DNA of 56,131 nt from Megamonas hypermegale (GTDB taxonomy: Bacteria; Bacillota; Negativicutes; Selenomonadales; Selenomonadaceae), in assembly GCA_002314325.1 (NCBI GenBank), contig DCFC01000044.1, positions 589 to 56,719 of the forward strand, read 5' to 3'. Both the position numbers and the translations under genes were made by a program. The notes beneath the pieces were generated by a model, which saw nothing but the letters and a program-made list of their open reading frames with translations, was not told where the DNA came from and searched no databases. Positions 1,159-49,984 of this stretch are shown one piece after another (positions within the stretch are counted from its first letter, which is position 1; each line of letters opens with the position of its first letter).

Positions 1159-1281
1159 CTTGTTGTGCCAATTTCCCAAAGCAGTATAATAGTTTATATT
1201 TGTTCGATGTTGTCACTTAACCTCACTAAATATAGACTATTATGCTGCTGGTTGCAGACTCGATGTTTTGCTGGCACAATG
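1159..1281 (+). repeat. NP element copy 1 (loop inverted)
   Basis: Outer ends TTGTGCC (1163) and GGCACAA (to 1279). Inner arms are 1180-1200 and 1229-1249, whose two departures from perfect pairing are both U-G wobbles in rightward RNA. Flanking near-perfect direct repeats AATATTTTCATTA (1146-1158) and AATATCTTCATTA (1282-1294) look like a target duplication. The flanks are in forward orientation but the loop is reversed. It lies in the divergent mrp-glmM intergenic region, upstream of the glmM promoter. Confidence 0.85.
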
Positions 1282-1333
1282 AATATCTTCATTATACTAT
1301 AAATCCATTTTGCGTAAAAGTAAACTAAATATA

Positions 1334-1363
1334 TTGGTGTATCAGCCGTATCTATGGTATTAT
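1334..1363 (+). promoter_or_regulatory. Probable glmM promoter
   Basis: TTGGTG (1334-1339), an 18-bp spacer and TATTAT (1358-1363), about 50 bp before the glmM start. A second -10-like TATAAT lies at 1367-1372. It sits between NP copy 1 and glmM, so the element is not in the glmM leader if this promoter is used. Confidence 0.45.
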
Positions 1364-1414
1364 AGATATAATTTGAAAATATGAATTAATCAAGATTTTG
1401 AGAGGGGTTTTTCC

Positions 1415-2764
1415 ATGGCTAGAATGTTTGGTACTGACGGTGTCAGAGGTAAGGCGAATGCGGAGCTTACGCCGGAGCTGGCGTATAAGCTGGGACGTGC
1501 CGCAGCAATTTATTTCACGAAGAAGAACGGAGAAAGTGCGACGATTTTTATCGGACGCGATACGCGCCTGTCCGGCCCGATGTACGAAGCGGCGCTTACG
1601 GCCGGAATTTGTTCTGCCGGCGGTCATGCCGTAATACTGGGCGAGCTGCCGACGCCTGCCGTGGCATTTTTGGCTCGCAAACATGAAGCTGATGCCGGTA
1701 TTGTTATTTCCGCTTCCCATAATCCGTTTCATGATAACGGCATAAAATTTTTCGGCGGCGACGGTTACAAACTGCCGGACGCTGTAGAGGATAAAATTGA
1801 AGCATTAGTGCACAGAATTGAAGAAAACGACGATTTATACCGTCCGACGGATGAAAAAATCGGCTATCTGACGTATCGCCACGATTTGCTGGAAGAATAC
1901 ATCTCTTTCGTTGTCGGTACGACCGATATCGAGCTGGAAGGCATGAAAATCGTGCTGGACTGCGCCAACGGCGCCGCTTATGAAGCTATGCCGCGTATTC
2001 TGCGCCGTCTCGGAGCCGACGTGATTGTCATCAATGATAAGCCGAACGGTGTGAATATCAACGATAACTGCGGTTCGACGCATTTGGAAATGCTGCAGAA
2101 AGCTGTTGTGGAAAACAAAGCCGATATCGGTATCGCTCACGACGGTGATGCGGACAGATGCCTGTGCATTGATGAAAACGGTCAGTTTATCGACGGCGAC
2201 CATATGATTGCAGCCTGTGCGATTTACATGATGGGCAAAGGCACGCTCAAAAACAATACGGTTGTAACGACGGTAATGGCGAATATCGGTTTCCATAAAG
2301 CAATTAAGGAAAACGGCGGACGCACGGAAATCACGGCTGTCGGCGACCGCTACGTACTGGAAAATATGCTGGCGAACAATTACAATCTGGGCGGCGAACA
2401 GTCCGGTCATATCATCTTCACCGATTTTTCCACGACGGGCGACGGTCCTGTTACGGCGCTGCAGGTACTGTCCTACTTAAAACGCACCCGCCGCAAAGCA
2501 TCCGCCATCACCAACATCATGACAAGCTATCCGCAGCTGCTCGTCAATGTGAAGGTGGCGACGAAAGAAGGCTGGGAAGATAACGGCAATATCAAGCTGG
2601 CAATAAAAGAAGGCGAAAAGCAGCTCGGAGAAAACGGCCGCATTCTCGTCCGCCCGTCCGGCACGGAACCGTTAATCCGCGTCATGGCGGAAGGACCGGA
2701 CCAGCAGGAGCTGGAAGAAATCTGTCAGAAAATAGCCGATGTGGTAAAAAAAGAACAGGGCTGA
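1415..2764 (+). CDS. glmM: Phosphoglucosamine mutase
   Basis: 449 residues, the usual GlmM length. It interconverts glucosamine-6-phosphate and glucosamine-1-phosphate, the middle step of UDP-GlcNAc synthesis for peptidoglycan and outer-membrane glycans. The N-terminal GTDGVRG, the active phosphoserine loop SASHNP (phospho-Ser at about 101), the Mg-binding DGDADR (243-248) and the C-terminal phosphate-binding RPSGTEP are all visible. The ATG follows GAGAGGGG. glmS lies directly downstream, so consecutive pathway steps are neighbours, but a promoter and a ribozyme separate them. Confidence 0.97.
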   Translation: MARMFGTDGVRGKANAELTPELAYKLGRAAAIYFTKKNGESATIFIGRDTRLSGPMYEAALTAGICSAGGHAVILGELPTPAVAFLARKHEADAGIVISASHNPFHDNGIKFFGGDGYKLPDAVEDKIEALVHRIEENDDLYRPTDEKIGYLTYRHDLLEEYISFVVGTTDIELEGMKIVLDCANGAAYEAMPRILRRLGADVIVINDKPNGVNINDNCGSTHLEMLQKAVVENKADIGIAHDGDADRCLCIDENGQFIDGDHMIAACAIYMMGKGTLKNNTVVTTVMANIGFHKAIKENGGRTEITAVGDRYVLENMLANNYNLGGEQSGHIIFTDFSTTGDGPVTALQVLSYLKRTRRKASAITNIMTSYPQLLVNVKVATKEGWEDNGNIKLAIKEGEKQLGENGRILVRPSGTEPLIRVMAEGPDQQELEEICQKIADVVKKEQG

Positions 2765-2776
2765 AAGGCAAATCTA

Positions 2777-2805
2777 TTGACAAAATCATAAGTTATATTT
2801 AAAAT
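2777..2805 (+). promoter_or_regulatory. glmS promoter
   Basis: TTGACA (2777-2782), exactly 17 bp, then TAAAAT (2800-2805): near-consensus sigma-A spacing, 13 bp past the glmM stop. The expected start at about 2812 falls inside the hairpin at 2808-2836. glmS therefore has its own transcript as well as any read-through from glmM. Confidence 0.7.
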
Positions 2806-2807
2806 AT

Positions 2808-2836
2808 GAGCATGCACGGAAGAAAAGTGCATGCTC
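2808..2836 (+). terminator. 10-bp hairpin between glmM and glmS
   Basis: A perfect stem GAGCATGCAC / GTGCATGCTC with a 9-nt loop, followed by ATTATATTTAT rather than a clean T-run. It could be a weak glmM terminator. It also overlaps the start expected from the promoter at 2777-2805, so it may instead shape the 5' end of the glmS leader RNA. Confidence 0.5.
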
Positions 2837-2867
2837 ATTATATTTATCGGATACTTAGCAAAAAGGT

Positions 2868-3045
2868 TATAAACTTTAGCGCTGGCTCTGCCGCAGCAGA
2901 GTACGAGGAGAAAGCCGTCGAAATATCAGCGGATGCTTTCCGGCCCGGTCTGGTCGACATAAACTGGCAAAACTTTCAAGCGATTGAAAGGACAATACAG
3001 CAGATGACCGCGGTAAATATAATCCGAGCAAAATTTCATATTTTT
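2868..3045 (+). ncRNA. glmS ribozyme (glucosamine-6-phosphate-activated)
   Basis: The leader of glmS carries the hallmark segments of this self-cleaving riboswitch. The cleavage-site context is TTTAGCGCTGG, with predicted scission between A2878 and G2879. The conserved core ACGAGGAGAAAGCCGTCG is followed by GCGGATGCTTTCCGGC. A downstream pairing region ends just before the glmS ribosome site. In the known class, binding of GlcN6P triggers cleavage and decay of the glmS message, giving product feedback. Position, strand and core match the Bacillus type; the 3' limit is approximate. Confidence 0.9.
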
Positions 3046-3060
3046 GAGGAGGACATATTT

Positions 3061-4890
3061 ATGTGCGGTATTGTAGGTTATGTTGGTGAAAAACAGGCAG
3101 CCGATTTCTTAGTTGACGGCTTGACTAAATTGGAATACAGAGGATATGACTCTGCTGGTATTGCCGTTTTCGACGGTGAAAAAATCGACATCGAAAAAAC
3201 GGTGGGTCGTCTGGCTGCATTGAAGGAAAAAATCAAGGAACATACGCCGCAGGGTGTTATCGGTATCGGTCATACGAGATGGGCAACGCACGGCCGTCCA
3301 TCCGACGTGAATGCGCATCCGCATACGGACTGCTCCGGCAAATTCGCTATCGTTCACAACGGCATCATCGAAAACTTCATGTCTTTGAAGGAAGAATTAA
3401 TCGAAAAAGGTCATAAATTCGTTTCCGAAACGGATACGGAAGTTGTGGCTCACTTAATTGAAGATGTTTACGAAGGCGATTTTGTAAAAGCGGTAAATGC
3501 AGTGCTCGACCGTATCGAAGGTTCTTATTCGCTCGTGTTCATGTGCCAGGATTATCCTGATACGCTCATCTGCACGAAAAAAGACAATCCGCTTGTAATC
3601 GGTCTGGGCGAAGGCGAAAACTTCATCGCTTCCGATATCCCGGCAATTATTGCGTATACGCGCCGTACCTACATCATGAACGATGGTGAAATCGCCGTAG
3701 TTAAAAAAGACAGCATCTGGGTAACGGACAGAAAAGGCAATCCGATTACGAAAAAAGTATTTGAAGTAAACTGGAATGCGGAAGCTGCGGAAAAAGGCGG
3801 CTACGAACATTTTATGCTCAAGGAAATCTTTGAACAGCCGAAAGCCGTAAGAGATACAATCTCCCCGCGTTTGAAAAAAGACAATACGGCCGTTGTGCTC
3901 GACGAACTCAAATGGACGAAAGAATATGTGGAAGCGTTCAACAAAGTATATATCATTGCCTGCGGTACGGCTTACCATGCCGGTCTTGTAGGTAAATACT
4001 ACATTGAAAAACTGGCTCGTATCCCGGTAGAAATCGACATTGCTTCCGAATTCAGATACAGAGACCCGATTATTGACGAACATACGCTGACTATCGTAAT
4101 CAGTCAGTCCGGCGAAACGAGCGATACGCTGGCAGCATTGAAAGAATCCAAACGTCTCGGCGCGAAAACACTTGCCGTTACGAACGTGGTAGGTTCTTCC
4201 ATCGCCCGTGAAGCTGACCAGGTTATGTACACTTGGGCAGGTCCAGAAATCGCCGTAGCATCCACTAAAGCATATACGACTCAGCTCGTTACAATGTTCA
4301 TGCTGGCTATGTATATGTCCGGCTTGAAAGGCACGATTGCGCCGGAAAGAGCGCATGACCTCCTGACACAGCTGCGCCATCTTCCGGACCAGGTAGGCCG
4401 CACGCTGGAAGATGTGGAACCGATTAAGACGTTTGCGAAAAATTACGCTTACAATAACGACGTGTTCTATATCGGCCGTTCGCTTGACTATTATGTAGCA
4501 CTTGAAGGTGCGCTAAAATTAAAGGAAATTTCCTATATCCATGCGGAAGCATATGCTGCCGGCGAACTTAAACACGGTACACTCGCTCTGATTGAAAGTG
4601 GCGTGCCGGTAATCGCTCTCGCTACGCAAAAGAGCGTTTATGAAAAAACACTGAGCAACATCAAAGAAGTTAAAGCACGTGATGCTGTTATCATCGGTAT
4701 CGCAGCGGCGGACGATACGGAACTGGAAAAATACGTTGACCACGTAATCAAAGTTCCGACGACGGACGAACTGTTAATTCCGCTGCTTACGGTTGTACCG
4801 CTCCAGCTTCTGGCTTATTATGCGGCAATCACCCGCGGCTGCGATGTTGACAAACCGAGAAATCTGGCAAAATCTGTAACAGTAGAATAA
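3061..4890 (+). CDS. glmS: Glutamine-fructose-6-phosphate aminotransferase
   Basis: 609 residues. It makes glucosamine-6-phosphate from fructose-6-phosphate using glutamine nitrogen, the committed step to UDP-GlcNAc. The start is the ATG after GAGGAGG because the mature enzyme must begin with the catalytic Cys (MCGIVGYVG). A longer in-frame extension upstream would run through the ribozyme and is rejected. An N-terminal class II glutamine amidotransferase domain (about 1-220) precedes two SIS sugar-isomerase domains containing SQSGET. The C-terminus ends KSVTVE, as in the family. Expression is probably set by the upstream ribozyme. Confidence 0.98.
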   Translation: MCGIVGYVGEKQAADFLVDGLTKLEYRGYDSAGIAVFDGEKIDIEKTVGRLAALKEKIKEHTPQGVIGIGHTRWATHGRPSDVNAHPHTDCSGKFAIVHNGIIENFMSLKEELIEKGHKFVSETDTEVVAHLIEDVYEGDFVKAVNAVLDRIEGSYSLVFMCQDYPDTLICTKKDNPLVIGLGEGENFIASDIPAIIAYTRRTYIMNDGEIAVVKKDSIWVTDRKGNPITKKVFEVNWNAEAAEKGGYEHFMLKEIFEQPKAVRDTISPRLKKDNTAVVLDELKWTKEYVEAFNKVYIIACGTAYHAGLVGKYYIEKLARIPVEIDIASEFRYRDPIIDEHTLTIVISQSGETSDTLAALKESKRLGAKTLAVTNVVGSSIAREADQVMYTWAGPEIAVASTKAYTTQLVTMFMLAMYMSGLKGTIAPERAHDLLTQLRHLPDQVGRTLEDVEPIKTFAKNYAYNNDVFYIGRSLDYYVALEGALKLKEISYIHAEAYAAGELKHGTLALIESGVPVIALATQKSVYEKTLSNIKEVKARDAVIIGIAAADDTELEKYVDHVIKVPTTDELLIPLLTVVPLQLLAYYAAITRGCDVDKPRNLAKSVTVE

Positions 4891-4908
4891 AAATCTGGTA
4901 AAAAATGT

Positions 4909-4938
4909 AAAACGGCTGTATTTTTCAGCCGTTTTTCT
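4909..4938 (+). terminator. Rho-independent terminator of glmS
   Basis: A perfect 10-bp stem AAAACGGCTG / CAGCCGTTTT with a 7-nt T-rich loop, followed by TCTTT. It lies 18 bp past the glmS stop. Confidence 0.85.
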
Positions 4939-6549: not shown

Positions 6550-6566
6550 TTAAATTAGTATAAAAC

Positions 6567-7672: not shown

Positions 7673-7681
7673 AATATACTG

Positions 7682-7790
7682 TTGTGTTAATAAAACATCA
7701 AGCAGTATAATACTTTATATACGTTCGGTGTTGTCACTTAACCTCACTTAATATAAAGTATTATACTGCTTGAAAAATCAGCTGGCACAA
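7682..7790 (-). repeat. NP element copy 2
   Basis: A reverse-oriented copy between two convergent genes. Outer ends are TTGTGTTA and TGGCACAA. Inner arms 7701-7721 and 7750-7770 pair except at one innermost base. It is the shortest copy (109 bp), lacking about 12 nt of the flank next to its left arm. I found no convincing flanking direct repeat. Confidence 0.85.
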
Positions 7791-7804
7791 TAGATTAAAG
7801 CAAA

Positions 7805-8602: not shown

Positions 8603-8606
8603 GAAA

Positions 8607-9395: not shown

Positions 9396-9425
9396 AGAGC
9401 TTCCTTCTTAGATTTATCAATTATA

Positions 9426-9554
9426 TTTTTTGTGCTAGTTAATTTTTCAAAGCAGTATAATAGTTTATATTTAGTGAGGTTAAGTGACAACATCGAATGA
9501 ATATAAACTATTATCCTGCTGGCTACAGGCTCGATGTTTTTCTGGTGCAAAAAG
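9426..9554 (+). repeat. NP element copy 3, inserted at a stop codon
   Basis: 129 bp between perfect 11-bp direct repeats TATCAATTATA (9415-9425 and 9555-9565). The right repeat overlaps the binding-protein stop codon (TGA at 9559-9557 on the minus strand). Outer ends are TTGTGCTAG and CTGGTGCAA. Inner arms 9451-9471 and 9500-9520 have one mismatch. Forward loop, inside a leftward operon. Confidence 0.9.
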
Positions 9555-9556
9555 TA

Positions 9557-11098: not shown

Positions 11099-11127
11099 AA
11101 TAAACCTCCTTTTAATTAAATTATGTA

Positions 11128-11247
11128 TTGTGTCAGTCGATTTCTCAGGCAGTATAATACTTTATATTTAGTGAGGTTAAGTGGCAACATCGAACGAATA
11201 TAAAGTATTATACTGCCGATTACAGGCTGAGTTTTTTACCGGCACAA
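11128..11247 (+). repeat. NP element copy 4
   Basis: Outer ends extend to GTATTGTG and CACAATAC. Inner arms 11148-11168 and 11197-11217 pair perfectly, with an outermost G-C pair where most copies have A-T. Forward loop. It lies between permease and binding-protein genes of the same leftward operon. Confidence 0.88.
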
Positions 11248-11253
11248 TACATA

Positions 11254-13727: not shown

Positions 13728-13763
13728 AAATATATACACTCCTCAAAAACAAATTAATTATCT

Positions 13764-13886
13764 ATTGTGTTAGTAAAACATCCAGTCTATAGCCAGCAGT
13801 ATAATACTTTATATTCGTTCGATGTTGGCACTTAACCTCACTAAATATAAAGTATTATACTGCTTTAGGAAATCAACTAGCACAAT
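13764..13886 (-). repeat. NP element copy 5, in the leader of the ABC operon
   Basis: A full reverse-oriented copy. Outer ends are TTGTGTTAGT and ACTAGCACAA. Inner arms 13795-13815 and 13844-13864 are a perfect 21-bp inverted repeat. Only a weak 6-bp flanking repeat (AATTAT) is seen. It lies between the MerR-type promoter and the methyltransferase start, so a transcript from that promoter carries the whole element in its 5' leader. Confidence 0.9.
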
Positions 13887-13906
13887 AAGCAAAATGAATT
13901 ATAATC

Positions 13907-21321: not shown

Positions 21322-21371
21322 TGTGTTAAATCATTCCTTTATTTCTGTAGTGTATTATTTATTATGCCGAT

Positions 21372-21491
21372 TTATGCCGATTGATTTCTGAAGCAGGATA
21401 ATATTTTATATTCAGTGAGGTTAAGTGACAACATTGAACGAATATAAAATATTATCCTGCTGTTGCGGATTGGATATTTGTATCGGCACAA
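21372..21491 (+). repeat. NP element copy 6
   Basis: Inner arms 21392-21412 and 21441-21461 pair perfectly despite two changes from the majority sequence (GCAGG/CCTGC and ATATTTTA/TAAAATAT), each compensated in the other arm. The outer ends TGCCGAT and ATCGGCA also match each other. The left end is duplicated in tandem (TTATGCCGAT twice, 21362-21381). It lies between ylmH and sepF. Confidence 0.9.
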
Positions 21492-21500
21492 TACGTTATA

Positions 21501-22676: not shown

Positions 22677-22701
22677 CTTCTGATTTAATAGTCTATTTTA
22701 T

Positions 22702-22830
22702 CTATTGTGCTAGTTGATTTTTCGAAGCAGTATAATAGTTTATATTTAGTGAGGTTAAATGCCAATATCGAACGAATATAAACTATTATACTGCTGGCTA
22801 TAGGCTCAATGTTTTACTAGTACAACGAAC
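22702..22830 (+). repeat. NP element copy 7 with 10-bp target duplication
   Basis: 129 bp between perfect direct repeats TCTATTTTAT (22692-22701 and 22831-22840). Outer ends TTGTGCTAGT and ACTAGTACAA. Inner arms 22726-22746 and 22775-22795 are perfect. Forward loop, between yggS and pgeF on the leftward strand. Confidence 0.92.
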
Positions 22831-25440: not shown

Positions 25441-25464
25441 AAATTTTTCCTCCTGTCTGGTATT

Positions 25465-25588
25465 TATTATGCCAGTTGATTTTCTGAAGCAGTATAATAC
25501 TTTATATTTAGTGAGGTTAAGTGACAACATCGAACGAATATAAAGTATTATACTGCTTATGCAGGCTCGATGTTTTACTAACATAACA
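25465..25588 (+). repeat. NP element copy 8
   Basis: Inner arms 25488-25508 and 25537-25557 are perfect. The terminal TTATG / CATAA pair differs from the usual TTGTG / CACAA but still matches itself. A short direct repeat GGTATT flanks (25459-25464 and 25589-25594). It lies between the nrdR terminator and the radical SAM ribosome site; the element's left edge is about 15 bp from the AGGAGG. Confidence 0.9.
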
Positions 25589-25610
25589 GGTATTAATTTG
25601 GTCTTAATAA

Positions 25611-30701: not shown

Positions 30702-30739
30702 AAAATAACCTCCATATATATTTTTATTATTTTTTACTT

Positions 30740-30862
30740 AATGTGCTGATTGATTTCCTAAGGCAATATAATACTTTATATTTAGTAAGGTTAAGTGCCA
30801 ACAGGCAGCGGATATAAACTATTATACTGCTGGCTTAAAGTTTCGATATATTACCAGCACAA
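30740..30862 (+). repeat. NP element copy 9 (degenerate)
   Basis: A diverged copy. The arms at 30762-30782 and 30811-30831 disagree at several positions (the left has the ACTTTATA type, the right the TAAACTAT type), and the loop's ACATCGAAC is changed to ACAGGCAGC. The outer ends GTGCTG and CAGCAC still match. It may be an old insertion or a product of recombination between two arm types. Confidence 0.8.
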
Positions 30863-30876
30863 TGAATATCTAATTA

Positions 30877-32160: not shown

Positions 32161-32199
32161 TGCATTCCTACCTTATTATATAAAATAAAACTAAAAATA

Positions 32200-32330
32200 C
32201 CTATTGTGTTAGTTGATTTCTAAAAGCAGTATAATAGTTTATATTTAGTGAGGTTAAGTGACAACATCGAACGAATATAAACTATTATACTGCTGGCTTA
32301 AAGGTTCGATATTTTACTAGCACAACAAGT
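32200..32330 (+). repeat. NP element copy 10 with 8-bp target duplication
   Basis: 131 bp between direct repeats TAAAAATA (32192-32199 and 32331-32338). Outer ends TTGTGTTAGT and ACTAGCACAA. Inner arms 32225-32245 and 32274-32294 are perfect. The loop ATCGAAC can alternatively pair with GTTCGAT in the right flank. It lies in the divergent obgE / glycosyltransferase region. Confidence 0.92.
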
Positions 32331-35973: not shown

Positions 35974-36030
35974 AATACCTTTTATCCGATAAGTCGAAGA
36001 CATTATTAAACGGATAAAAGGTATTTTTTA
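35974..36030 (+). terminator. Rho-independent terminator
   Basis: 15-bp stem AATACCTTTTATCCG / CGGATAAAAGGTATT with a 22-nt loop and a T-run, 7 bp past the glycosyltransferase stop. Confidence 0.88.
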
Positions 36031-36478: not shown

Positions 36479-37219
36479 ATGCAAGTGGGAATTTCGGAAA
36501 TTTTTTCCTCCGTGCAGGGAGAGGGAAAATACGTAGGCTGCCGTCAGCTGTTTATCCGCCTCATTGGCTGCAATATGGACTGCCCGTACTGCGATACGAA
36601 TACGCTGGCGCATACGGCGTCCGTTCCGTGTCTGCTGGAGGAAGTGGAAGGCCATCAGGGAAAAACGGAACTTATTAATCCTGTAAAGCCGGAAGATGTA
36701 CTGCCGTATATAAAATACCGCCTGCAATCGCCGCACCATTCGGTCAGCATAACGGGCGGCGAACCGCTGCTGTTTACGGATTTTATCCGCATTCTGGCGC
36801 AAGAGATAAAACCGCTTAACGTGCCGCTGTTTCTGGAAACGAACGGCACACTGCCGAAACAGCTGGAAAAAGTAATAGATATCGTAGACATCATCAGCAT
36901 GGACATGAAACTGCCGAGCGATGTGCAGGCGGAATACTGGCGCGAGCATGAAGAATTTCTGCATATTGCGGCCCGGAAAGACGTTTATGTTAAAATCGTA
37001 GTTTCCGAGCAGTCAACAGAAGCCGATTTTATCAAGGCGCTCGATATCATTAAACAAGTGGACGAGAATATTCTGCTTGTGCTGCAGCCGATAACACCGC
37101 AGGGCGGACTTTGCGCCGCATCGCCGCAGAAAATGCTCGACTGGCAGGATTTGGCGCTGCGGACGCTGAAAAACGTGCGCGTAATCGGACAGACGCATCG
37201 TTTGCTGGATTTACGTTAA
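36479..37219 (+). CDS. queE: 7-carboxy-7-deazaguanine synthase (radical SAM)
   Basis: 246 residues. The cluster cysteines 31, 35 and 38 (GCNMDCPYCDT) fit CX3CX2C; SITGGEPL supports SAM binding. It rearranges the QueD product to the deazaguanine core. Translational coupling with queD is likely. The C-terminal codons and stop run directly into NP element copy 11, whose left end is not clearly separable from the coding sequence. Confidence 0.94.
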   Translation: MQVGISEIFSSVQGEGKYVGCRQLFIRLIGCNMDCPYCDTNTLAHTASVPCLLEEVEGHQGKTELINPVKPEDVLPYIKYRLQSPHHSVSITGGEPLLFTDFIRILAQEIKPLNVPLFLETNGTLPKQLEKVIDIVDIISMDMKLPSDVQAEYWREHEEFLHIAARKDVYVKIVVSEQSTEADFIKALDIIKQVDENILLVLQPITPQGGLCAASPQKMLDWQDLALRTLKNVRVIGQTHRLLDLR

Positions 37220-37331
37220 TTATTTTTCTAAAGCAGTATAATAGTTTATATTTAGTGAGGTTAAGTGATAACATCGAACGAATATAAACTATTATACTGC
37301 TGGCTATAAGCTCGACGTTTTACGAGCACAA
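37220..37331 (+). repeat. NP element copy 11, abutting queE
   Basis: Inner arms 37232-37252 and 37281-37301 are perfect; the right end is GAGCACAA. The left end would fall inside the last codons of queE (TTACGTTAATTATTTTTC compared with TTGTGCTAGTTGATTTTT), so either the gene end was built on element sequence or the left end is lost. No clear direct repeat. Confidence 0.85.
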
Positions 37332-37363
37332 TAGATTAGAATTAGCAGAAAGGTGGTGTTTCA

Positions 37364-39381: not shown

Positions 39382-39856
39382 GTTCATTTTTCTTTGATGC
39401 AAAGAAAAACGAACCAAAAAGAAACTTTTTAACGTTTCGCTAACGCTGCACTGGGCGAGCCTTCGCAGCCCTTGCAGATAAACAGGCGGTACGAAGGTTC
39501 GAACCGTTTGGAATTTGGCTCGAGCCTTCCATTTTCAGCAGAAACTTAAATTGAGTTGTTGGTACAATATTGTGCTAGTCATGCTGAATTTTTGTCTGCG
39601 TTGGGAATTTTTACGGTAGCTTCAGCTATTAAGAAAACAATTTTTTATTTCTGTTTTTAGTTCAAATGTTTGAGCAAAGCGAGTTTTTGAACGTTAGAAA
39701 TAAAAAATTGTTTTCTTAAAGTAAAAATTTCTTAGCAGTACACGAACCAAGGCACTTTCTTTTTCGGCAACTTTTCTTTGTGCCAGCAAAGAAAAATTGC
39801 CCGGCGCAATATAAGAATAAATTAAGAAATTAAATCTCTTTATCTTATATTGTGCC
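39382..39856 (+). repeat. Long structured repeat (LSR) copy A
   Basis: This gene-free stretch shares about 300 bp with 55777-56131, including ACGTTTCGCTAACGCTGCAC. Four hairpins are visible. 39382-39414 has arms GTTCATTTTTCTTTG / CAAAGAAAAACGAAC. 39629-39652 pairs perfectly with 39696-39719 (24 bp), with an inner GTTCAAA / TTTGAAC. 39766-39801 has arms GGCAACTTTTCTTTG / CAAAGAAAAATTGCC. 39803-39856 has arms GGCGCAATATAAGA / TCTTATATTGTGCC. The first could terminate ahcY. No reading frame of note; the remainder to 39923 shows only the next gene's leader. Confidence 0.8.
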
Positions 39857-41405: not shown

Positions 41406-44400
41406 ATGACTTTAGTGCAAAGAAAGAAAATGGAAAGAATAATTATCCTTAGTTTATTTTTGGGGATAACCAATACAGGATTTGCCCAGACGACGTCAAG
41501 CACGGGTATTAATGGAAATTTTGCTCACATATACGATGATGACTTAAAGATATCGGTAAATAATGGATATTACGGTATTCAAGCACTGGACAGCAATATT
41601 GATTTGACGATGCAGAACATGGAAATAGACAATAAGGGAAACAGAAGAAACAGTAAATTCAACGGTATATATGCAGACGGATTAAGTGTAATTAATATAA
41701 ACGGAACGAATCTCCAGATGAATATCAATAATACGGATAATTCCACAGGAATAGAAGCAGAAGAGGGTTCTATAATAAAAATTGATGTCAAAAAATCGAA
41801 TAATGTGAATATAAAGGGTATAAGGCAGAATACTTCTGGTGGAATAGAGGTTAGGGACAAAGCGTCTGTTTCTTTAAAAGCAGGAAATTCAAATATGATA
41901 AATGCTGATTTTGTAGGAATATCGGCAGATGAACAATCTCAGGTGGATTTGATTGCAGGTAATGACAATATTATTGCAGCCAATAATGCAATTGTAAGCT
42001 GGACGAATGGAAGAATTAATTTAACGGCATTAAATGGCAGTAATGTATTAAACGGTATATATTTTGGTATAAGCGGATATGATAATTCAGATATAACGCT
42101 AAACGCGCCAAGCGGCAGAAATATTATTAACGTGACGGACGGAGCCGGTATTCTGGCGGATAATACAAAGATACGGCTTAAAGCGGAAAACAATAGTATT
42201 ATTTCGCAAAAAGGAATAGCTGTGGATGCTACAGTCGGCAGCAGCGTCAATATTATAGGTAGGCAGAATAACTATATTGACGGATTGATTTATGTAAAGG
42301 ATAAGGGAACGGTCGTAAATATCGGAAATTTTTTCGGGGCGGGTAATGTAAAAGACAGTGGTAACAATTATATAATCATTAATATTGACGGCAACAATAC
42401 AAACGATATCGATATGAATAACAGTAATGCTGTTTCAGCGATATATGCAGGTGATGGAGCGGTTATTAATATCGGAGCAGATGAACGGCACGGAAATTAT
42501 ATAATGCGTACTTTAAATAACCGACAAAAACAGAGCCGACTGGTCTGGGTTAGTGAAGGAAGCGTCAATATACAGGGACGGTCTGATTTGTATGCAACGG
42601 ATGATTGGTCGGTAAGCAGTAAACAGATTGCATTGGCAGCCGGTACGGTAAATCCGAATGAAGAAAAACAAAAGGCATTACTGAATTTGAATTTTGGCAG
42701 TGGCAGTAAAATTATTGGAGATATTACAGCCGGTAAAAACGGTTATATAAATATAACGCCGCAAAACGGAGCCGATATAAATATGCAAAGCAATATATTG
42801 GCAGCAAACGGCGGCAGTATCAATATCGATACGGGCGACAATAGCTTTTTGACGGGACGCATTGACGATTACAGCGACGCTGCAGTCAAATTGAGCCACG
42901 GTGGAGAAATGTTCAAACCGGAATACAGCGACAAAATCATATCGAGCGGGAATATAAATCTTACGCTGGGGAAAAATTCACAATGGAATGTTGCGGGACA
43001 GTCATGGGTATCGCAGCTGAATTTGAAGGAAAACAGCATAGTCAATCTGGTCAGTGCCAATACGGATGAAAGAAATAAGCCGCATGCGCTGCTGATAGAA
43101 AATTTAAGCGGCGACGGCAATTTTGTAATGAGTTTGAAAGATAACAGAAACCTAAGCGACATGTTGTATTTGAAAAAAGCAACCGGTGTATATAATATAG
43201 TTCTGACCGATGTTTTGACTAACCAGGAATTGGGAAAGACAGGTCTGCGTTTTGCTACAGTCGGGGCCGGTTCGAATATTATTTTTAAAAATGTTGTAGC
43301 ATACGATAAAGGCGCATACGATGTCAAATATGTAATAAATACAGATAAGTATTTAAATAATGCGGAGAACAACGATTATAATAATGATGAAAACCATGCT
43401 GACGGCAGTTTCGGTCAATATCGTCCGGGAAATGAAGCAGTTGGGAACTTTTTGGAAAGTGGCGGACAAAACGACAGTGAAATTCTGGATTATAAAATTT
43501 CTGCAGTGGAAAACAGAGAATTATCAAATGTCGGCAATACGATACTGAATATGAGCAAGGCGAATTACAGCCAGGCCGTATATATGGACAGATTGAGCAA
43601 ACGAATGGGTGAATCTCATTATATAAACGGTAATGAAGGTTTATGGGTAAGAATGCGTTATGATGAAACGGATAAGGATAAAGCGTTTAAGATATCCACC
43701 AATATGTATGAAATAGGTTATGATAGAAAATCTGATAGCAAGGATAAAAACGGTTATCACAGACGCGGTATTGCTTTTGATTATATGGACGGCAATACAA
43801 GTTATGATGATATTGCCGGCAGCGGTGAGACGAACCGTAAAGGCATATGGTTTTATGATACATGGTTCGGCAACAAAGGCCACTATACCGATTATGTAGT
43901 AAAATGGGGACACCTTGAAAACAATTTCGACCTCTATACCAGAATGCACAATGAAAAAGTGAACGGTGAATATGATAATGATGTGTATTCGGTGAGCGGA
44001 GAGTGGGGATATAAGAATAAACTTAATGGAGGCTGGTATATTGAACCGCAGCTGCAGATGCAGTATGCACATGTAACAGGTGAAAATTATAAGACGACGC
44101 AGGAAACGGAAGTATCGGCAGACGGTATTGACAGTCTGATTGCAAGAGCCGGTTTCAGGTTCGGTCGAGATTTCGGCAAGGATGGAAAATCAACATTCTA
44201 TGTAAAAGCGGATATACTGCATGAGTTTTTTGGTGAACAGAATATCACAGTCAGGGATAAGAGTACTGAATATCTGAAACGAAGTATAGATTATGACAAC
44301 GGCGGAACATGGTATACAATAGGATTGGGCTTAAGCACGGAGCTGACAGACCATTCATATGCTTTTCTGGATATTGAAAAGACATTCGGCAGCGATAATA

Positions 44401-44444
44401 ATAACTCGTACCAGATTAACGGCGGAATGCAGTGGGCATTGTGA
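41406..44444 (+). CDS. Autotransporter 1 (type Va), beta-helix passenger
   Basis: 1012 residues. A signal peptide ends at about GFAQ (residue 28). A long Asn/Asp/Gly/Ile-rich passenger (about 30-690) has short repeats of the SVNIIG / AVINIGAD kind expected of a right-handed beta-helix. An autotransporter barrel (about 710-1012) starts after ILNMSKANYSQAVYMDRL and ends QINGGMQWAL. It should be exported and inserted in the outer membrane. The ATG at 41430 (MERIIILSLFLG) aligns better with the neighbouring paralogue; neither candidate has a strong ribosome site. No protease or adhesin motif is evident. Base composition is more AT-rich than the flanking genes. Confidence 0.9.
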   Translation: MTLVQRKKMERIIILSLFLGITNTGFAQTTSSTGINGNFAHIYDDDLKISVNNGYYGIQALDSNIDLTMQNMEIDNKGNRRNSKFNGIYADGLSVININGTNLQMNINNTDNSTGIEAEEGSIIKIDVKKSNNVNIKGIRQNTSGGIEVRDKASVSLKAGNSNMINADFVGISADEQSQVDLIAGNDNIIAANNAIVSWTNGRINLTALNGSNVLNGIYFGISGYDNSDITLNAPSGRNIINVTDGAGILADNTKIRLKAENNSIISQKGIAVDATVGSSVNIIGRQNNYIDGLIYVKDKGTVVNIGNFFGAGNVKDSGNNYIIINIDGNNTNDIDMNNSNAVSAIYAGDGAVINIGADERHGNYIMRTLNNRQKQSRLVWVSEGSVNIQGRSDLYATDDWSVSSKQIALAAGTVNPNEEKQKALLNLNFGSGSKIIGDITAGKNGYINITPQNGADINMQSNILAANGGSINIDTGDNSFLTGRIDDYSDAAVKLSHGGEMFKPEYSDKIISSGNINLTLGKNSQWNVAGQSWVSQLNLKENSIVNLVSANTDERNKPHALLIENLSGDGNFVMSLKDNRNLSDMLYLKKATGVYNIVLTDVLTNQELGKTGLRFATVGAGSNIIFKNVVAYDKGAYDVKYVINTDKYLNNAENNDYNNDENHADGSFGQYRPGNEAVGNFLESGGQNDSEILDYKISAVENRELSNVGNTILNMSKANYSQAVYMDRLSKRMGESHYINGNEGLWVRMRYDETDKDKAFKISTNMYEIGYDRKSDSKDKNGYHRRGIAFDYMDGNTSYDDIAGSGETNRKGIWFYDTWFGNKGHYTDYVVKWGHLENNFDLYTRMHNEKVNGEYDNDVYSVSGEWGYKNKLNGGWYIEPQLQMQYAHVTGENYKTTQETEVSADGIDSLIARAGFRFGRDFGKDGKSTFYVKADILHEFFGEQNITVRDKSTEYLKRSIDYDNGGTWYTIGLGLSTELTDHSYAFLDIEKTFGSDNNNSYQINGGMQWAL

Positions 44445-44529
44445 AAATAGTGATAAAATGATTGACACTGTTTCAGCGGACATGTTAAGGCTACGTATAG
44501 TTTTTAAAATAGAATAAGTATTAAAGAAG

Positions 44530-44570
44530 ACCACCAACAAGGGATTAATGATTTTTGTTGGTGGTTTTTT
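44530..44570 (+). terminator. Rho-independent terminator after autotransporter 1
   Basis: 11-bp stem ACCACCAACAA / TTGTTGGTGGT with a T-run. The rest of the gap to 44696 is AT-rich and contains only the AAAGGA site of the next gene. Confidence 0.85.
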
Positions 44571-44696
44571 GTATTTTTTGAGTGAACAAACTTAACGATT
44601 GTTTTAAATAAATCATTAAAACATATTTATTTAATATAAAATATATGTTAAAATTATTTTATAGGATTATTAATGGATTAAAGAAAGGATTATTTT

Positions 44697-47600
44697 ATGA
44701 AAAAAGCAATTATTTTAAGTCTATTTTCATCAATGAACGCTGTAACAACAACTTTTGCTGCAAACATAAATCCTATTGATATTCATGAAGGACAAATATA
44801 TGAACAGGCAATGGATGATGATACAACATTAATGATAGACGAGGGGAAAGGAATAGGTATCAGTGTTCTTGGGGGAAGTAAAGTAAATCTTGCAGGAAAT
44901 GGCGCTTTCCGCATGAAGACGTTGGAGGCTGATAATGAAAGAAACTTTGTCAGATATGGAATACGTGTACAAGATAGTTCTTCTGTTGTAAAAATAAAAT
45001 CAAATGACGGCAATATCGAAATGGATATGAAGAATATGTATAGAATTTCTCCTACTTTTAATGGGATATACACAGGTTTTTTTGGATTAACGGATATTGT
45101 TACTGAAAAGAATTTTAATATGAGTATGGAGCAGAATGCTGCTAAAGTAAAGAATTTTTATGGAATAGAGGCTGATAAGGGCGTCATAAATATAAAAACA
45201 GGAGAAAATCTGGAGTTAAATTTAATTGATAAATCCAGCGGAGTGAATAATAATAATAGGTATTTTTATGGATTGTATGCTAATGATAAAGGTGTATTGA
45301 ATATTGAATCAAACGGAAACATAAATTTAAATATGGTTGAAAATGTTGACTCCTCTTATACCAGAGGAATATATGCTTACGGTGACAGCCAAATAAATAT
45401 GAAAGCAGCTAAAGACTTGAATATAAATATCACTTCTGCTGATAATGCTGCAACTAATGCACGCGGAATATTGGCATGGAAGTCAGCTGTTGTTAATGTG
45501 CAGGCTGAAAATATCAATATCGATATGAATACGGCAGGTAAAGAAGATAATGGTCCGTCTGGAATAAAAGCAAGCGGCGGGCTGGTGAATATTGAGAATA
45601 CGTCTAATTTGAAGATTAATTCAGTAGGAAGAAACAATGGCAGTAATGAAGCAATAATGGCAGATTCTTCTGTGAAAATGGAAGATGGACGGTTATCAAA
45701 GATAAGTATGAATTTATCCGGTGATATGGATATAAATTTAACGGCTGATAATATGACAGAGACGACGGGTGTGTATTCTTATGCAAATTCAGGAAAGACA
45801 GCAGTCATTGACATTAATAATGAAGGCGATAATAAAATCAATATTAAAAGTGAAAATTTAACAAAGAGTGCTTCCGGTATTAATCTTGAAACTGATAATA
45901 GAGAAAGTAAAGCGGATAAAACATTTTCAGCAGAGTTGACGATGCAGGGGAAAAATATGTTGATTGATGTAAATAGCAATAAAAATGCGGCTTACGGCAT
46001 ATATGAGCATATCAACAGTAGTAACAGCGTAGCAGTAGGAAATATAATATCAGCCGAACAAAATAAGATAAATGTAAATGTAGCTAATTCAGATAAAGAA
46101 GCTGTCGGTATATGGATGGAAAATACTGTCAGTGATGCGGAAAATACTTCAGCACAGCTTGATTTAAAAGGAAACAGTCTGACGCTTAATGCACATAATA
46201 GCAGTGGTATAAACGGTACAGGCATAAAAGTGCAGAACAAGGGCGAATTTGCTCGTTTAAATATTAATAGTACACAGGATAATACGATAACGGCTGATGA
46301 TATGGGGATATTGGCGGAAGGCGAAAAAGCATATGCGAATATTACTTCTGAAAATGGAAATAATACCGTTTCTGTAGGTAAAGATACAGCTGTGAAAGCT
46401 GCAAACGGAGGTACGGTGCATCTTGCTTCAGCAAAGAATAATGATATTCACGGTATGATTGAAGCAGATGGAAACGGCAGCAGTGTTGACCTTTTTGGCG
46501 GAGGTAACAATATTATCACTGTGGACGGCAATAATACGGTAAATAAATCGGATACTGTTTCGGCTGTTTATGCAGTTAATGGCGGTACAGTCAATATTAC
46601 GGCCGATGAAGGAAAAATAAATAGTATATCCGAAAGTAATTCAGTAGGCGATAAAAAAAGCCGGCTCGTTTTAGCAAATGACGGAACGATAAATTTAGCA
46701 GGAACGAGCATTTTAAAAAGCAGTCGGACAGCTTTGGCGGCAGGCGTGTCTGATTTAAACGAGGCGACAGATGCGAAAGCATATATTAATTTTGACTATG
46801 GAGCAGGAAGTTCAGTAACCGGCAATATTGTTGCAGGCAAGAACGGAATGATAACGGTTGTCCCTCAAGTTGAAATGCAAAACGGCGGACTTAATCTGCA
46901 AGGAAATATTTTAGCTTCAAACGGAGGTACTGTTAATATAAATATCGGTAAGAATACAGTATTTACAGGCAGAACGGACGATTTTTCCGATATTAACGTC
47001 AATGCAAATCACGGCAGTGATGTCTTAAAACAGGATTATAGTAAGACTATTGCTGAAAAAGGAAATATATATTTGACGCTGGAGGACAATTCACGTTGGA
47101 ATGTTACGGGGCAGTCATGGGTAACTTATCTTAATCCGAATGGCAGTACGATTGACCTTGTGGCGGCTAATAAGGATAGAAAGACGAATTCCCATGCGCT
47201 CACAGTTGGCAGATTGCAGGGCGATGCTACTTTTAATATGAGTCTTGACCGAAACAGAAATATAAGCGATATGCTTTATGTAAAAAAAGCTGACGGTGTA
47301 TATAATATTAATGTGTTTGACCCGGTGACGACAGATGATATGTATGCGGATAATTTTGACGGTTTGCGGTTTGCTACAGTAGGGAAAGGTTCCAATGCAC
47401 AGTTTAAGGCGTATACAATAGATGCCGGAGTTATGAATATCGAATATGAAGTCGGCAGTGATAAGTACAGTAATAATAAAGAAAATGATGCTTATAACGG
47501 CGGAATGAATATAAATGAAGATAAACCGGGTTCACGCGGAGTGGATGAATTTTTTGCAAGAGAAGAAAATTCGTCAGGCGCAGCTAAAATGAGAGTGGCC

Positions 47601-48713
47601 CAAGAAGCTGCAGATTATGAAAATGCAGCGGTTAACAACTCGGATACAGCTGTTGAAGCAGCAGATAAAAAGGAAAACGAGATTACAAATTATAAACTTG
47701 TAGCCAGAAAAAATGAACCGGATAAACCGAATGAAGGAGAGCATATTCCAGAGAAAAATCTTTCCGATGCCGGTAAAACTATTTTGAATATGGCAAAAGC
47801 CAATTATAATAGAGCCGTGTATATGGACAGACTTAATAAGCGCATGGGAGAAGCACGATACATTGAAGGTGATGAAGGCTTATGGGTGCATATGCGTCAT
47901 GACAGAACAGATAAAGAGACAGGTTATAAAATATCGTCAAATATGTATGAACTCGGTTATGATAAGAAATACGACAGCAAGGACAGTAATGGGTATCATA
48001 GACGCGGTGCAGCTATAGACTATATGGATAGTGATACTGGTTTTGATGATATCATAGGTAATGGGGAAACACATCGCAAAGGTATTTGGCTCTATGATAC
48101 GTGGTTCGGCAACAAAGGCCACTACACCGATTATATAGCAAAATGGGGACATCTTGAAAACAGTTTCGACCTCTATACGAAAACTCGCGGTGAAAAAGTA
48201 AGCGGTGAATATAATAATAATGTATATTCGCTCAGTGCTGAATGGGGCTATAAGGATATCCTGAATGAAGATAAGGATAATCTGGAAAACAATAAGGATA
48301 AATGGTATATCGAGCCGCAGCTGCAAATGCAGTATGCGCGCGTAACGGGAGCAGACTACACCACGAGCCAGGGAACGGATGTTTCCGTAGACGGCATTGA
48401 TAGCCTTATTGCCAGAGCAGGTTTCCGTTTCGGTAAGGATTTCGGCAGTGATAGAAAATCCACATTCTATGTAAAAGCGGATGTATTGCATGAATTCATG
48501 GGCGACCAGGATATTACCGTAAGAGATAAAACTACGGACGGTATAGCAAGAACAATTGGCTACGATAATGACGGAACATGGTATACGGTAGGGCTCGGCT
48601 TCAGCACCATGCTCAGCGACCATTCGTATGCTTTCCTCGATGTGGAAAAAGTATTCGGCAACGACAATGACAACTCGTACCAGATTAATGGCGGAGTTCA
48701 GTGGGCGCTTTAA
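44697..48713 (+). CDS. Autotransporter 2 (type Va), paralogue of autotransporter 1
   Basis: 1338 residues. Signal peptide MKKAIILSLFSSMNAVTTTFA. The passenger (about 25-960) is rich in Asn, Asp and Ile with beta-helix-like repeats (VNIENTSNLKINSVG, NINLNMVENV). An Ala/Glu/Lys-rich linker (about 960-1025) is absent from the first protein. The barrel (about 1030-1338) begins ILNMAKANYNRAVYMDRL and ends QINGGVQWAL. The two barrels are much more alike than the passengers: GIW-YDTWFGNKGHYTDY and KWGHLEN are shared. AAAGGA precedes the ATG. Possible roles are adhesion or aggregation; none is shown by sequence. Confidence 0.92.
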   Translation: MKKAIILSLFSSMNAVTTTFAANINPIDIHEGQIYEQAMDDDTTLMIDEGKGIGISVLGGSKVNLAGNGAFRMKTLEADNERNFVRYGIRVQDSSSVVKIKSNDGNIEMDMKNMYRISPTFNGIYTGFFGLTDIVTEKNFNMSMEQNAAKVKNFYGIEADKGVINIKTGENLELNLIDKSSGVNNNNRYFYGLYANDKGVLNIESNGNINLNMVENVDSSYTRGIYAYGDSQINMKAAKDLNINITSADNAATNARGILAWKSAVVNVQAENINIDMNTAGKEDNGPSGIKASGGLVNIENTSNLKINSVGRNNGSNEAIMADSSVKMEDGRLSKISMNLSGDMDINLTADNMTETTGVYSYANSGKTAVIDINNEGDNKINIKSENLTKSASGINLETDNRESKADKTFSAELTMQGKNMLIDVNSNKNAAYGIYEHINSSNSVAVGNIISAEQNKINVNVANSDKEAVGIWMENTVSDAENTSAQLDLKGNSLTLNAHNSSGINGTGIKVQNKGEFARLNINSTQDNTITADDMGILAEGEKAYANITSENGNNTVSVGKDTAVKAANGGTVHLASAKNNDIHGMIEADGNGSSVDLFGGGNNIITVDGNNTVNKSDTVSAVYAVNGGTVNITADEGKINSISESNSVGDKKSRLVLANDGTINLAGTSILKSSRTALAAGVSDLNEATDAKAYINFDYGAGSSVTGNIVAGKNGMITVVPQVEMQNGGLNLQGNILASNGGTVNINIGKNTVFTGRTDDFSDINVNANHGSDVLKQDYSKTIAEKGNIYLTLEDNSRWNVTGQSWVTYLNPNGSTIDLVAANKDRKTNSHALTVGRLQGDATFNMSLDRNRNISDMLYVKKADGVYNINVFDPVTTDDMYADNFDGLRFATVGKGSNAQFKAYTIDAGVMNIEYEVGSDKYSNNKENDAYNGGMNINEDKPGSRGVDEFFAREENSSGAAKMRVAQEAADYENAAVNNSDTAVEAADKKENEITNYKLVARKNEPDKPNEGEHIPEKNLSDAGKTILNMAKANYNRAVYMDRLNKRMGEARYIEGDEGLWVHMRHDRTDKETGYKISSNMYELGYDKKYDSKDSNGYHRRGAAIDYMDSDTGFDDIIGNGETHRKGIWLYDTWFGNKGHYTDYIAKWGHLENSFDLYTKTRGEKVSGEYNNNVYSLSAEWGYKDILNEDKDNLENNKDKWYIEPQLQMQYARVTGADYTTSQGTDVSVDGIDSLIARAGFRFGKDFGSDRKSTFYVKADVLHEFMGDQDITVRDKTTDGIARTIGYDNDGTWYTVGLGFSTMLSDHSYAFLDVEKVFGNDNDNSYQINGGVQWAL

Positions 48714-48723
48714 AAATTTATTT

Positions 48724-48759
48724 ACAAAGAAGGAGCAAAACAGCTCCTTCTTTGTTTTC
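48724..48759 (+). terminator. Rho-independent terminator after autotransporter 2
   Basis: Perfect 13-bp stem ACAAAGAAGGAGC / GCTCCTTCTTTGT, 6-nt loop, TTTT. It lies 10 bp past the stop. Confidence 0.92.
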
Positions 48760-48883
48760 AGAGTAAAATAATTTGGTTTTTTGAAGGAAAATATAAAATT
48801 ATGTAGAATGTTATATCTATGTTAAAGAGGGTAGGCCGGATATCTTCTTTATCGTACTACATTTAAAAAGGAAGGTATTTATT

Positions 48884-49303
48884 ATGAATAATAAGGCTGC
48901 TAAATTTCAGGAATATTTGACAGCAAATAATATTACAGGATTTAATCATGAAGAATTCAGTGATGAATTCCATACTGTAATGTTCCGTTCCCGCATTGTG
49001 ATTAAAGGGCAGGAAATTCCTATGGCGATAATTTTGGATGACAGTATTTACCGTATGATACGTATTCAGCTTGTATCGAGTGTGGAAAATACAACTGAGG
49101 TGGTAAGTTATCTGAATAAATTAAACGCTAAATATAAATCCTATAAATTTTATTTAACGGAACAGAATAACTTGATTTTAGATAGCTGTGTCATGGGTAA
49201 AGATGAAGATGAAAGCGAAGTTATAATCGCTGTTTTGAATAATATAATAAAACAGATGCAGGATGAATATTCCGATTTAATGCATGTTGTTTGGAGCAAG
49301 TAA
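48884..49303 (+). CDS. YbjN-like small cytoplasmic protein
   Basis: 139 residues with no signal peptide or membrane segment. An alpha/beta pattern with SYLNKLNAKYKSYKFYLTEQNNLILDSCVM resembles the YbjN / type III-chaperone-like fold, in which the central sheet carries Y-F-x-L segments. Function in this lineage is unknown. AAGGAAGG precedes the ATG. It is followed 14 bp later by a secreted protein gene, so the two are probably cotranscribed. Confidence 0.65.
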   Translation: MNNKAAKFQEYLTANNITGFNHEEFSDEFHTVMFRSRIVIKGQEIPMAIILDDSIYRMIRIQLVSSVENTTEVVSYLNKLNAKYKSYKFYLTEQNNLILDSCVMGKDEDESEVIIAVLNNIIKQMQDEYSDLMHVVWSK

Positions 49304-49317
49304 AGGAGATTTTGAAG

Positions 49318-49782
49318 ATGAAAAAATTAATTCTGGTTTTAACGGCTGTAATGATGATGGCGTTTTCCGGTATTTGCATGGCGTCGGACAGTGGCGATTT
49401 GAGTAAGGAACAGAAAGCAGTTGATACGTTTATCAGCGCTATCAGCACGGATAAAGTTACGTATGAAAAATTTGCTGTCAATATGAATGATGGTTTGAAA
49501 GCAAAGCTGGACGCTAAAACTTTTGAACAGCTGAAAAACAATGTGAAGAACAATTTCGGCGATTACAAAGACAGTAAACTGTATATTTTTGAACGTTCGC
49601 TGACTGGAGATAAAGATGTAGTGATGTATGTGGCTTCTTTCAGCAAAGAAGAACATGTATTGATGGTGTTCGGCTTCGATAAGGATGCGAAAATGTCGGA
49701 AATCGGTCTGAACATAATGCAGCAGCAGAATGCTGAACAGGCACAGAATACTGAACAGCAGGCGCAAGCGGCACAACAGTAA
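49318..49782 (+). CDS. Secreted or periplasmic protein of unknown function
   Basis: 154 residues. Signal peptide MKKLILVLTAVMMMAFSGICMA. The mature part (about 23-135) looks like a DUF3887-type small domain (TFISAISTDKVTYEKFAVNMNDGLKAKL...FGDYKDSKLYIFE), followed by a Gln/Ala-rich tail. The ATG at 49318 after AAAGGAGATTTTG is used rather than one nine codons upstream that overlaps the previous gene. I do not recognise a specific function. Confidence 0.7.
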   Translation: MKKLILVLTAVMMMAFSGICMASDSGDLSKEQKAVDTFISAISTDKVTYEKFAVNMNDGLKAKLDAKTFEQLKNNVKNNFGDYKDSKLYIFERSLTGDKDVVMYVASFSKEEHVLMVFGFDKDAKMSEIGLNIMQQQNAEQAQNTEQQAQAAQQ

Positions 49783-49802
49783 TACATTAATAATGTAAAA
49801 AT

Positions 49803-49833
49803 AAAAAGCCCTGGGAATTTCCCGGGGCTTTTG
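49803..49833 (+). terminator. Rho-independent terminator
   Basis: Stem AAAAGCCCTGGG / CCCGGGGCTTTT with a 5-nt loop; T-run at the end. A TATAAT with TGTGG before it (49837-49842) follows at once and may start transcription of the next unit. Confidence 0.88.
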
Positions 49834-49855
49834 TGGTATAATTAGCTTATTTAAA

Positions 49856-49984
49856 CTTGTCGTGCTAATAAAATATTTAGCCTATAGCCAGCAGAATAAT
49901 AGTTTATATTTGTTCGATGTTGGCACTTAGCCTCACTAAATATAAACTATTATCCTGCTTTGGAAAATCAAATGGCACAACAAG
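49856..49984 (-). repeat. NP element copy 12 with 9-bp target duplication
   Basis: 129 bp between direct repeats TTATTTAAA (49847-49855 and 49985-49993). The extended ends CTTGTCGTGC and GGCACAACAAG show the inverted end reaching the duplication. Inner arms 49890-49910 and 49939-49959 have one mismatch. Reverse-oriented, 31 bp before the serine hydrolase gene. Confidence 0.92.

Follow-up and report, generated by a model that had tools for sequence, protein, structure and literature searches.

The question raised by this locus is why a short, seemingly mobile repeat should preserve its interior better than its ends. The window (the whole stretch of DNA analysed, 56,131 nucleotides of the Megamonas hypermegale contig DCFC01000044.1) contains twelve copies of a nested palindrome, here called NP, in which outer inverted repeats enclose a hairpin with a 21-bp stem and a 28-nt loop. 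NP is a non-coding insertion with terminal repeats and IS982-like ends, and its copies are best read as miniature inverted-repeat transposable elements (MITEs) of an IS982-family insertion sequence (IS). The usual definition of a MITE rests on its ends, and the interior is often treated as filler. In NP, the interior is the better conserved part, and the loop is also found in a separate lineage, in elements whose stems and ends are different. We consider it likely that NP is a MITE moved by IS982, and that it carries a hairpin presenting the loop as a recognition site for a shared factor.

In the alignment of the copies, NP spans 109-122 bp from TTGTG to CACAA (119-132 bp when 5 nt are added at each end). 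Its outer inverted repeats are TTGTGCYAGT / ACTRGCACAA, and its spacers measure about 11 nt on the left and about 20 nt on the right. The outer 12-bp arms pair in 82% of cells. NP thus has the short length, the terminal inverted repeats, and the lack of a coding gene that characterize MITEs. The first-pass annotation, made from the letters alone, had described twelve copies with 21-bp inner arms and a well-conserved loop, always between genes. Its positions held: its 20-nt loop sequence matched 12 times in the window at up to 3 mismatches and not once in 100 shuffles, and a covariance model built on 11 copies (the inverted copy at 1.2 kb was left out), a check which that annotation had proposed, recovered all 12. 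The inner arms were likewise as described, being perfect in seven copies and paired at 17-20 of the 21 positions in the remaining five, and the conservation of the loop was borne out by the deviation counts given below. The intergenic location was found for 12 of the 12 copies in a window of which about 90% is coding according to our own gene list, with the reservation that the copy at 37.2 kb extends into the end of queE by at least 9 bases. Its left end (37206-37219) seemingly supplies the final codons of that gene together with the stop codon. Co-directional gene pairs flank nine copies, and the others lie in convergent and divergent spacers. The window itself is chromosomal and carries housekeeping genes (searches covered 40 of the roughly 47 gene-sized open reading frames, ORFs). 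A partial model match at 35974-36025 was rejected as a copy; it has the look of an ordinary terminator, a hairpin with T's behind it.

Copy 1 (1.2 kb) matched the model at full length on one strand (80 bits) and with its core alone on the other (74.6 bits); it is therefore a hybrid in which the core is inverted relative to the ends. Such an inverted core, seen in 1 of the 12 copies, might have arisen through strand switching or recombination between the inner arms.

Evidence for insertion came from a relative, G044, whose ObgE is 95% identical to that of the window and which we infer from the sequences to be congeneric with the window's organism. The genome collection includes one other member of its genus, G043, and the nearest full-length ObgE sequences in the genome_contigs set belong to Selenomonadaceae, at up to 75% identity. 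For PgeF, relatives were found at 97, 84, and 76%. Both neighbouring genes are syntenic at 10 of the 12 sites, and the neighbourhood is partly conserved at two (13.8 kb, where G044 lacks one ORF, and 49.9 kb, where only the right side is shared). NP is absent from all 12 orthologous sites in G044, so that the presence and absence typical of MITEs is found between the two genomes. Eleven sites are empty, and one, between obgE and tagA, holds a different, shorter palindrome of 50 bp with TTGTGC ends. This palindrome has its own 7-bp direct repeat, TTATTTT, and therefore is probably an independent insertion. The obgE-yhbY spacer is 175 bp long in the window and has a median length of 23 bp (range 3-390) in 63 loci of relatives. 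The further copies expected outside the window do exist: G044 has two intact and several decayed copies in 2.23 Mb. The NP family either expanded in the window's lineage or shrank in that of G044; because the G044 sites are empty, we favour expansion. The window is a clear case of a dense MITE load beside a close relative with very few. A scan for pairs of terminal inverted repeats (TIRs) gave, among the results listed, 34 pairs in the window against 2-11 in controls, and most G044 stretches were near the control level.

Several side observations were made in G044. One copy (G044:C1:1814302-1814419) has a shortened loop, and its opposite strand, read by eye, keeps a TTGATA-17-TAAACT spacing. 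Another element (G044:C1:890759-890850) combines NP-like ends with an inner hairpin of another kind, so that the same ends seem able to take different cores. In the stretch G044:C1:350001-446000, 51 TIR-like pairs were counted, against 18-38 in five Markov controls. The G+C content is 45% in the window and 35% in a 96-kb G044 stretch, despite the high identity of ObgE.

Exact direct repeats of at least 7 bp abut the NP ends (taken as fixed 5-nt ends) in 4 of 12 copies, compared with 1 of 132 mismatched flank pairs. These repeats, ATCAATTAT, TCTATTTT, TAAAAAT, and TATTTAA, have the form of target-site duplications. When all elements were counted (those of the window and G044, and the IS copies), the numbers were 7 of 20 versus 4 of 380. 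The IS982 copy in G073 is flanked by TAATGTA in the same geometry, and the other three IS copies tested had no exact repeat.

The first-pass annotation had reported no transposase nearby. This was incorrect, as the first 114 bases of the window encode the end of an IS982 transposase, and the end of that IS matches the NP ends. A parent IS is therefore present in the same genome, represented by one IS982 end at positions 1-124, with the body of the IS beyond the edge of the window. The corresponding full-length protein, P0128, belongs to the IS982 family (NF033520 transpos_IS982, 236 bits; cut-off 130), as does the transposase of G043 (NF033520, 249.9 bits against the same cut-off, and also PF13612). 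G043 contains two IS copies that are 99.3% identical, with the ends CTCATTGTGCTAGTTCATTTT and TTTTAACTAGCACAATACG, and the IS ends in G073 and G081 (32% identity) are again of the form ACCTGTTGTGCTAGTTGATT. Relatives of the IS982 transposase at E <= 1e-20 were found in 4 of 189 genomes of the order. The seven IS982 ends available from four IS copies (one from the window and two each from G043, G073, and G081) read ACNNRTTGTGCTARYT when counted from 5 nt outside TTGTGC, and at this chosen position all seven start with 5' AC. Among the 24 NP ends, 9 start with AC and 10 with AT, with the TTGTGC-type repeat inside; the NP ends are thus IS982-like. The part of PMC7335449 dealing with IS982 describes AC ends and short direct repeats of variable length.

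The arms and loop of NP deviate three times less than its ends. Over 11 copies (copy 1, with its inverted core, was left out of the count), the core deviated from the consensus at 42 of 769 cells (5.5%), the ends at 39 of 220 (17.7%), and the spacers at 71 of 372 (19.1%). By column permutation, p was about 5e-4 for ends versus core and about 1e-3 for ends versus loop, and the difference between ends and core persisted for every consensus base considered separately. As a plain MITE should keep its ends best, yet the core of NP is kept best, NP does not appear to be merely a MITE. In the pair counts within NP, the cell count was reached by 1 of 500 shuffles and the covariation score by none of 500, so both stand out; part of this signal may reflect subfamily history. 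Folds are stable on both strands (six folds from four copies, with z between -3.7 and -8.7), and no Rho-independent terminator was found inside the three elements of the stretch scanned for them. A candidate pseudoknot between loop AACATCGA and right spacer TCGATGTT was rejected, with 0 of 8 pairs changed on both sides.

A search of 380 genomes of the class with the NP model under strict filters added one genome, that of Methylomusa anaerophila (E 8e-4 for that genome), in which the loop of the match is close to that of NP and the stem is not. Taken alone, this match is weak. At up to 3 mismatches, however, the loop motif occurred at 22 places in 800 kb of the M. anaerophila chromosome, with 3 in the reversed control, plus 1 with 4-5 mismatches and a stem. 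Both arms are present in seventeen of these cases, whose stems form three sets, a (8), b (6), and c (3); the five left out comprise one at the edge of the sample, three half elements, and one without a stem. Compared in register, the stems of sets a and b agree at 9 of 15 positions, a level reached by 0.9% of shuffles, and the other six pairs are changed on both sides; for this reason the two sets are considered partly related. For the stem of set c, the agreement with those of a and b is 5-6 of 15, which is the level of shuffles. By eye, sets a and b end alike, mostly in ...TTCCATATA or close variants, and set c ends otherwise. Sets a and b also carry outer arms by reading, and thus are nested palindromes as NP is. 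A search with the outer arms of the Methylomusa elements revealed no parent IS in the 800-kb sample.

A loop survey of 760 kb from 25 other genomes of the class gave one match, an element in G293; in 420 kb of G293, this element was the only loop match with a long stem, and two further matches were near the control level. The following comparisons were made with hand-picked representatives of stems and loops. The NP loop of the window is 66-78% identical to those of M. anaerophila and G293, which are 79-91% identical among themselves. Between the NP and set a loops 25 positions match, compared with 17.4 on average and 22 at most in 2000 shuffles. The NP stems match those of M. anaerophila and G293 at 4-6 of 15 positions in register, which was reached by 14-64% of shuffles and is the chance level, and 7-11 of the 15 pairs are kept through two-sided changes. 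The loop patterns were partly shaped by the Methylomusa loops, so the mismatch counts favour Methylomusa. In 189 genomes of the family, a pattern allowing 2 mismatches gave five singletons (one in G044) versus three in controls, and the exact pattern had no match in genome_contigs.

A distant bacterium of the class has the loop too, there combined with different stems and ends, which suggests that some component of these cells recognises it. Because of this recurrence, the loop of NP looks like a recognition site, and the suggestion in the first-pass annotation that it may bind a protein or RNA gains support. Our reading is that one loop-presenting hairpin is carried by elements with different ends, and that it is probably a binding site for a shared factor. 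A broader, tentative proposal, which we would not yet count as the probable one, is that a loop of about 30 nt on any pairing stem is a recognition module carried by MITEs with different ends, and so probably with different transposases, across lineages of the Negativicutes. A shared host factor (an RNA- or single-stranded DNA-binding protein, or an RNA) would then bind the loop and make insertions tolerable or aid their spread.

For NP itself, an IS982-family transposase would act in trans on the ends ACNNRTTGTGCTAGTT, and transposition would duplicate an A+T-rich target of 7-9 bp. Copies inside genes would be lost, leaving intergenic survivors. The cargo would be the hairpin, whose 21-bp stem would serve mainly to pair and to present the 28-nt loop, and the loop would be recognised, as a single strand, by a factor that these bacteria have in common. 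By one route, an mRNA read through NP would present the loop, and its binder would affect processing or polarity; by another, the hairpin would form in single-stranded DNA, and the binder would help transposition or protect the site. We regard RNA and DNA as about equally probable for the folded strand. If the proposal is true, small transposons circulate a common signal, and the loop could be used as bait for its reader.

Several observations weigh against this proposal. Mobility is read from sequence features in the case of NP, and the Methylomusa elements are only putatively mobile. An exact end repeat is lacking in 8 of the 12 copies. G044, which has NP, gave no IS982 match, and G043, which has IS982, gave no NP match. 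The variation of the ends may partly predate insertion, since the outer arms still pair to the extent given above, and the contrast between ends and core would then count for less. The eight NP pairs changed on both sides (five in the outer and three in the inner arms) were reached by 128 of 500 shuffles. Mismatches in the NP arms comprise 14 G-U and 18 A-C, and those in the M. anaerophila arms 2 G-U and 4 A-C, with no signature of an RNA strand in either. The orientation of NP agrees with that of the co-directional genes in 7 of 9 cases, which is not significant; the tally was made by hand, and one of the nine flanks (13.8 kb) is an ORF taken as a gene by reading. As to the loop, it was found in only 1 of the 25 other genomes of the class, which were thinly sampled, and the first 80 loci, most of them from Selenomonadaceae, had no match at up to 3 mismatches. 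The loop of the G044 copy reaches only 59-72% identity to those of Methylomusa and G293, and the M. anaerophila stem sets a and b, being related in part, are not independent.

Among the more specific explanations, the one that survives best is itself a version of the proposal: NP may be a cis-acting RNA element, an mRNA stem that is cut by RNase III or sets stability, with a loop that binds a protein or small RNA. The predominance of copies between co-directional genes, the stable folds, and the pairs changed on both sides between stem sets all fit, and Correia transcripts are cut by RNase III according to the relevant part of PMC10969869. The lack of a G-U excess in either set of arms, the copies in convergent and divergent spacers, and the absence of an Rfam match speak against it. 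It is a possible reading, to which we give somewhat less than even weight.

A plain IS982 MITE with an idle core, in which the loop has been kept through a recent master copy and the Methylomusa likeness is due to old common descent or transfer, seems to us unlikely. The ends, the empty sites, and the direct repeats fit such an element, as do the balanced G-U and A-C mismatches, and IS982-derived MITEs are known (PMC9769881, in the part concerning them). However, a dead passenger should decay like the ends, whereas the core deviates three times less, and M. anaerophila and G293 keep the loop on stems unlike those of NP.

A mobile promoter is more doubtful still. The strand opposite the loop has an outward TTGNCA-17-TAAANT, which matches at 9 or more of 12 positions in all 12 copies, compared with 25% in Markov sequences, and 7 of the 9 co-directional copies point with their genes by the hand tally. 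The copies are related, however, so the 12 of 12 amounts to one observation; moreover, the loop strand also reaches 9 or more in seven copies (10 in three of them), the -10 hexamer is weak, and most of the invariant loop columns lie outside the hexamers. Palindromes of the repetitive extragenic palindrome (REP) type, whose hairpin is itself recognised by the Y1 transposase that moves them (REP-associated tyrosine transposase, RAYT), share the hairpin core and the intergenic sites with NP, but the IS982-like ends, the direct repeats, the occurrence of the same ends with a DDE transposase, and the absence from the NP ends of the GTAG/CGTC tags described in part of PMC3733652 make this origin highly improbable.

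The earlier statement that NP matches no named family is supported in that no Rfam family matches it; its ends and the evidence for insertion fit an IS982-family MITE. With Rfam 15 at the gathering threshold, the window gave the glmS ribozyme only, and no NP match; at a relaxed threshold, an NP stretch and a second sequence, L128, gave only weak, chance-type matches of the microRNA type, below threshold. No match was found in viral_contigs or, by BLAST, in plasmids; against phages, NP had one 35-base match at E 0.1 and the Methylomusa element none. Among the matches listed from the open-access literature, there was no such element in Negativicutes and there were no elements sharing a loop on different stems. 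IS982-derived MITEs and MITEs with internal protein sites are already known; the loop module is the part worth following.

Table 1. Positions of the NP copies, a representative core, and the IS982 remnant in the window
Feature	Position	Strand	Remarks
IS982-family transposase C-terminus, 37 codons + stop	1..114	+	gene runs off left edge; tblastn match 4-96; 37/37 identical to P0128 end
Right end of window IS982	105..124	.	reverse complement, read inward: ACCCATTGTGCTAGTTAATT
NP copy 1, hybrid	1158..1284	-	core 1180-1249 in opposite orientation to outer arms and spacers; TTCATTA (7 bp) repeated on either side, not abutting
NP copy 2	7677..7795	-	right spacer shortened; between convergent genes
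NP copy 3	9425..9555	+	9-bp flanking direct repeat ATCAATTAT
NP copy 4	11123..11252	+	between nikC-like and nikA-like genes
NP copy 5	13760..13890	-	imperfect flanking repeat AAATTAATTAT/AAATGAATTAT, read by eye
NP copy 6	21367..21496	+	part of left end duplicated in tandem just outside
NP copy 7	22700..22830	+	8-bp flanking direct repeat TCTATTTT
NP copy 8	25462..25591	+	between nrdR and TIGR03960 radical-SAM gene
NP copy 9	30736..30867	+	most diverged core; between obgE and yhbY
NP copy 10	32199..32330	+	7-bp flanking direct repeat TAAAAAT
NP copy 11	37206..37336	+	over last codons of queE; left end decayed
NP copy 12	49855..49985	-	7-bp flanking direct repeat TATTTAA
Representative NP core	32225..32294	+	arm 32225-32245 (21 bp), conserved loop 32246-32273 (28 nt), arm 32274-32294 (21 bp)

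The window has other features as well. A second, unrelated repeat of about 450-550 bp, starting GTTCATTTTTCTTT..AAAGAAAAACGAACCAAA, occurs at 39416-39675 and 55870-56130; four more whole or partial copies were found in G044, and it had no convincing Rfam match. The glmS ribozyme (RF00234, 63.9 bits) lies at 2867-3016, upstream of glmS. Two large adjoining ORFs at 41406-48713 (1012 and 1338 amino acid residues) share several repeated stretches with 71-78% DNA identity, and had no match in the G044 stretches compared.

REP and BIME elements go with a RAYT transposase. In the features compared, length and ends, NP differs from them; REP is described in part of PMC3733652 as a palindrome of 20-40 bp with a GTAG or CGTC tag. 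The Caulobacter CIR element (PMC2229807, in the part treating it) resembles NP in being a hairpin with a conserved motif exposed in the loop, but the motif is the short methylation motif GANTC, the structure is two-armed, and terminal repeats are absent. With IS982 (NF033520, PF13612; PMC7335449, in part), NP shares the kind of end with 5' AC and the short, variable direct repeats; unlike IS982, it has no transposase gene and is about 125 bp rather than 1 kb long. MITECca01 of Cardinium is likewise short, non-autonomous, provided with IS982 ends, and amplified in one lineage; it is about 240 bp long, and the section of PMC9769881 describing it mentions no conserved hairpin loop shared with other elements. 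The Correia/NEMIS, ERIC, RUP, and YPAL families are, in the sections of PMC2229807 on them, MITE-like repeats of 100-200 bp with long folds, several with target duplications, and the 155-bp form of Correia has an internal protein site, for IHF. According to the same sections these families are mostly TA-ended, whereas NP has mostly AC or AT ends and repeats of 7-9 bp. What further sets NP apart from them is a loop that is common to elements with other stems.

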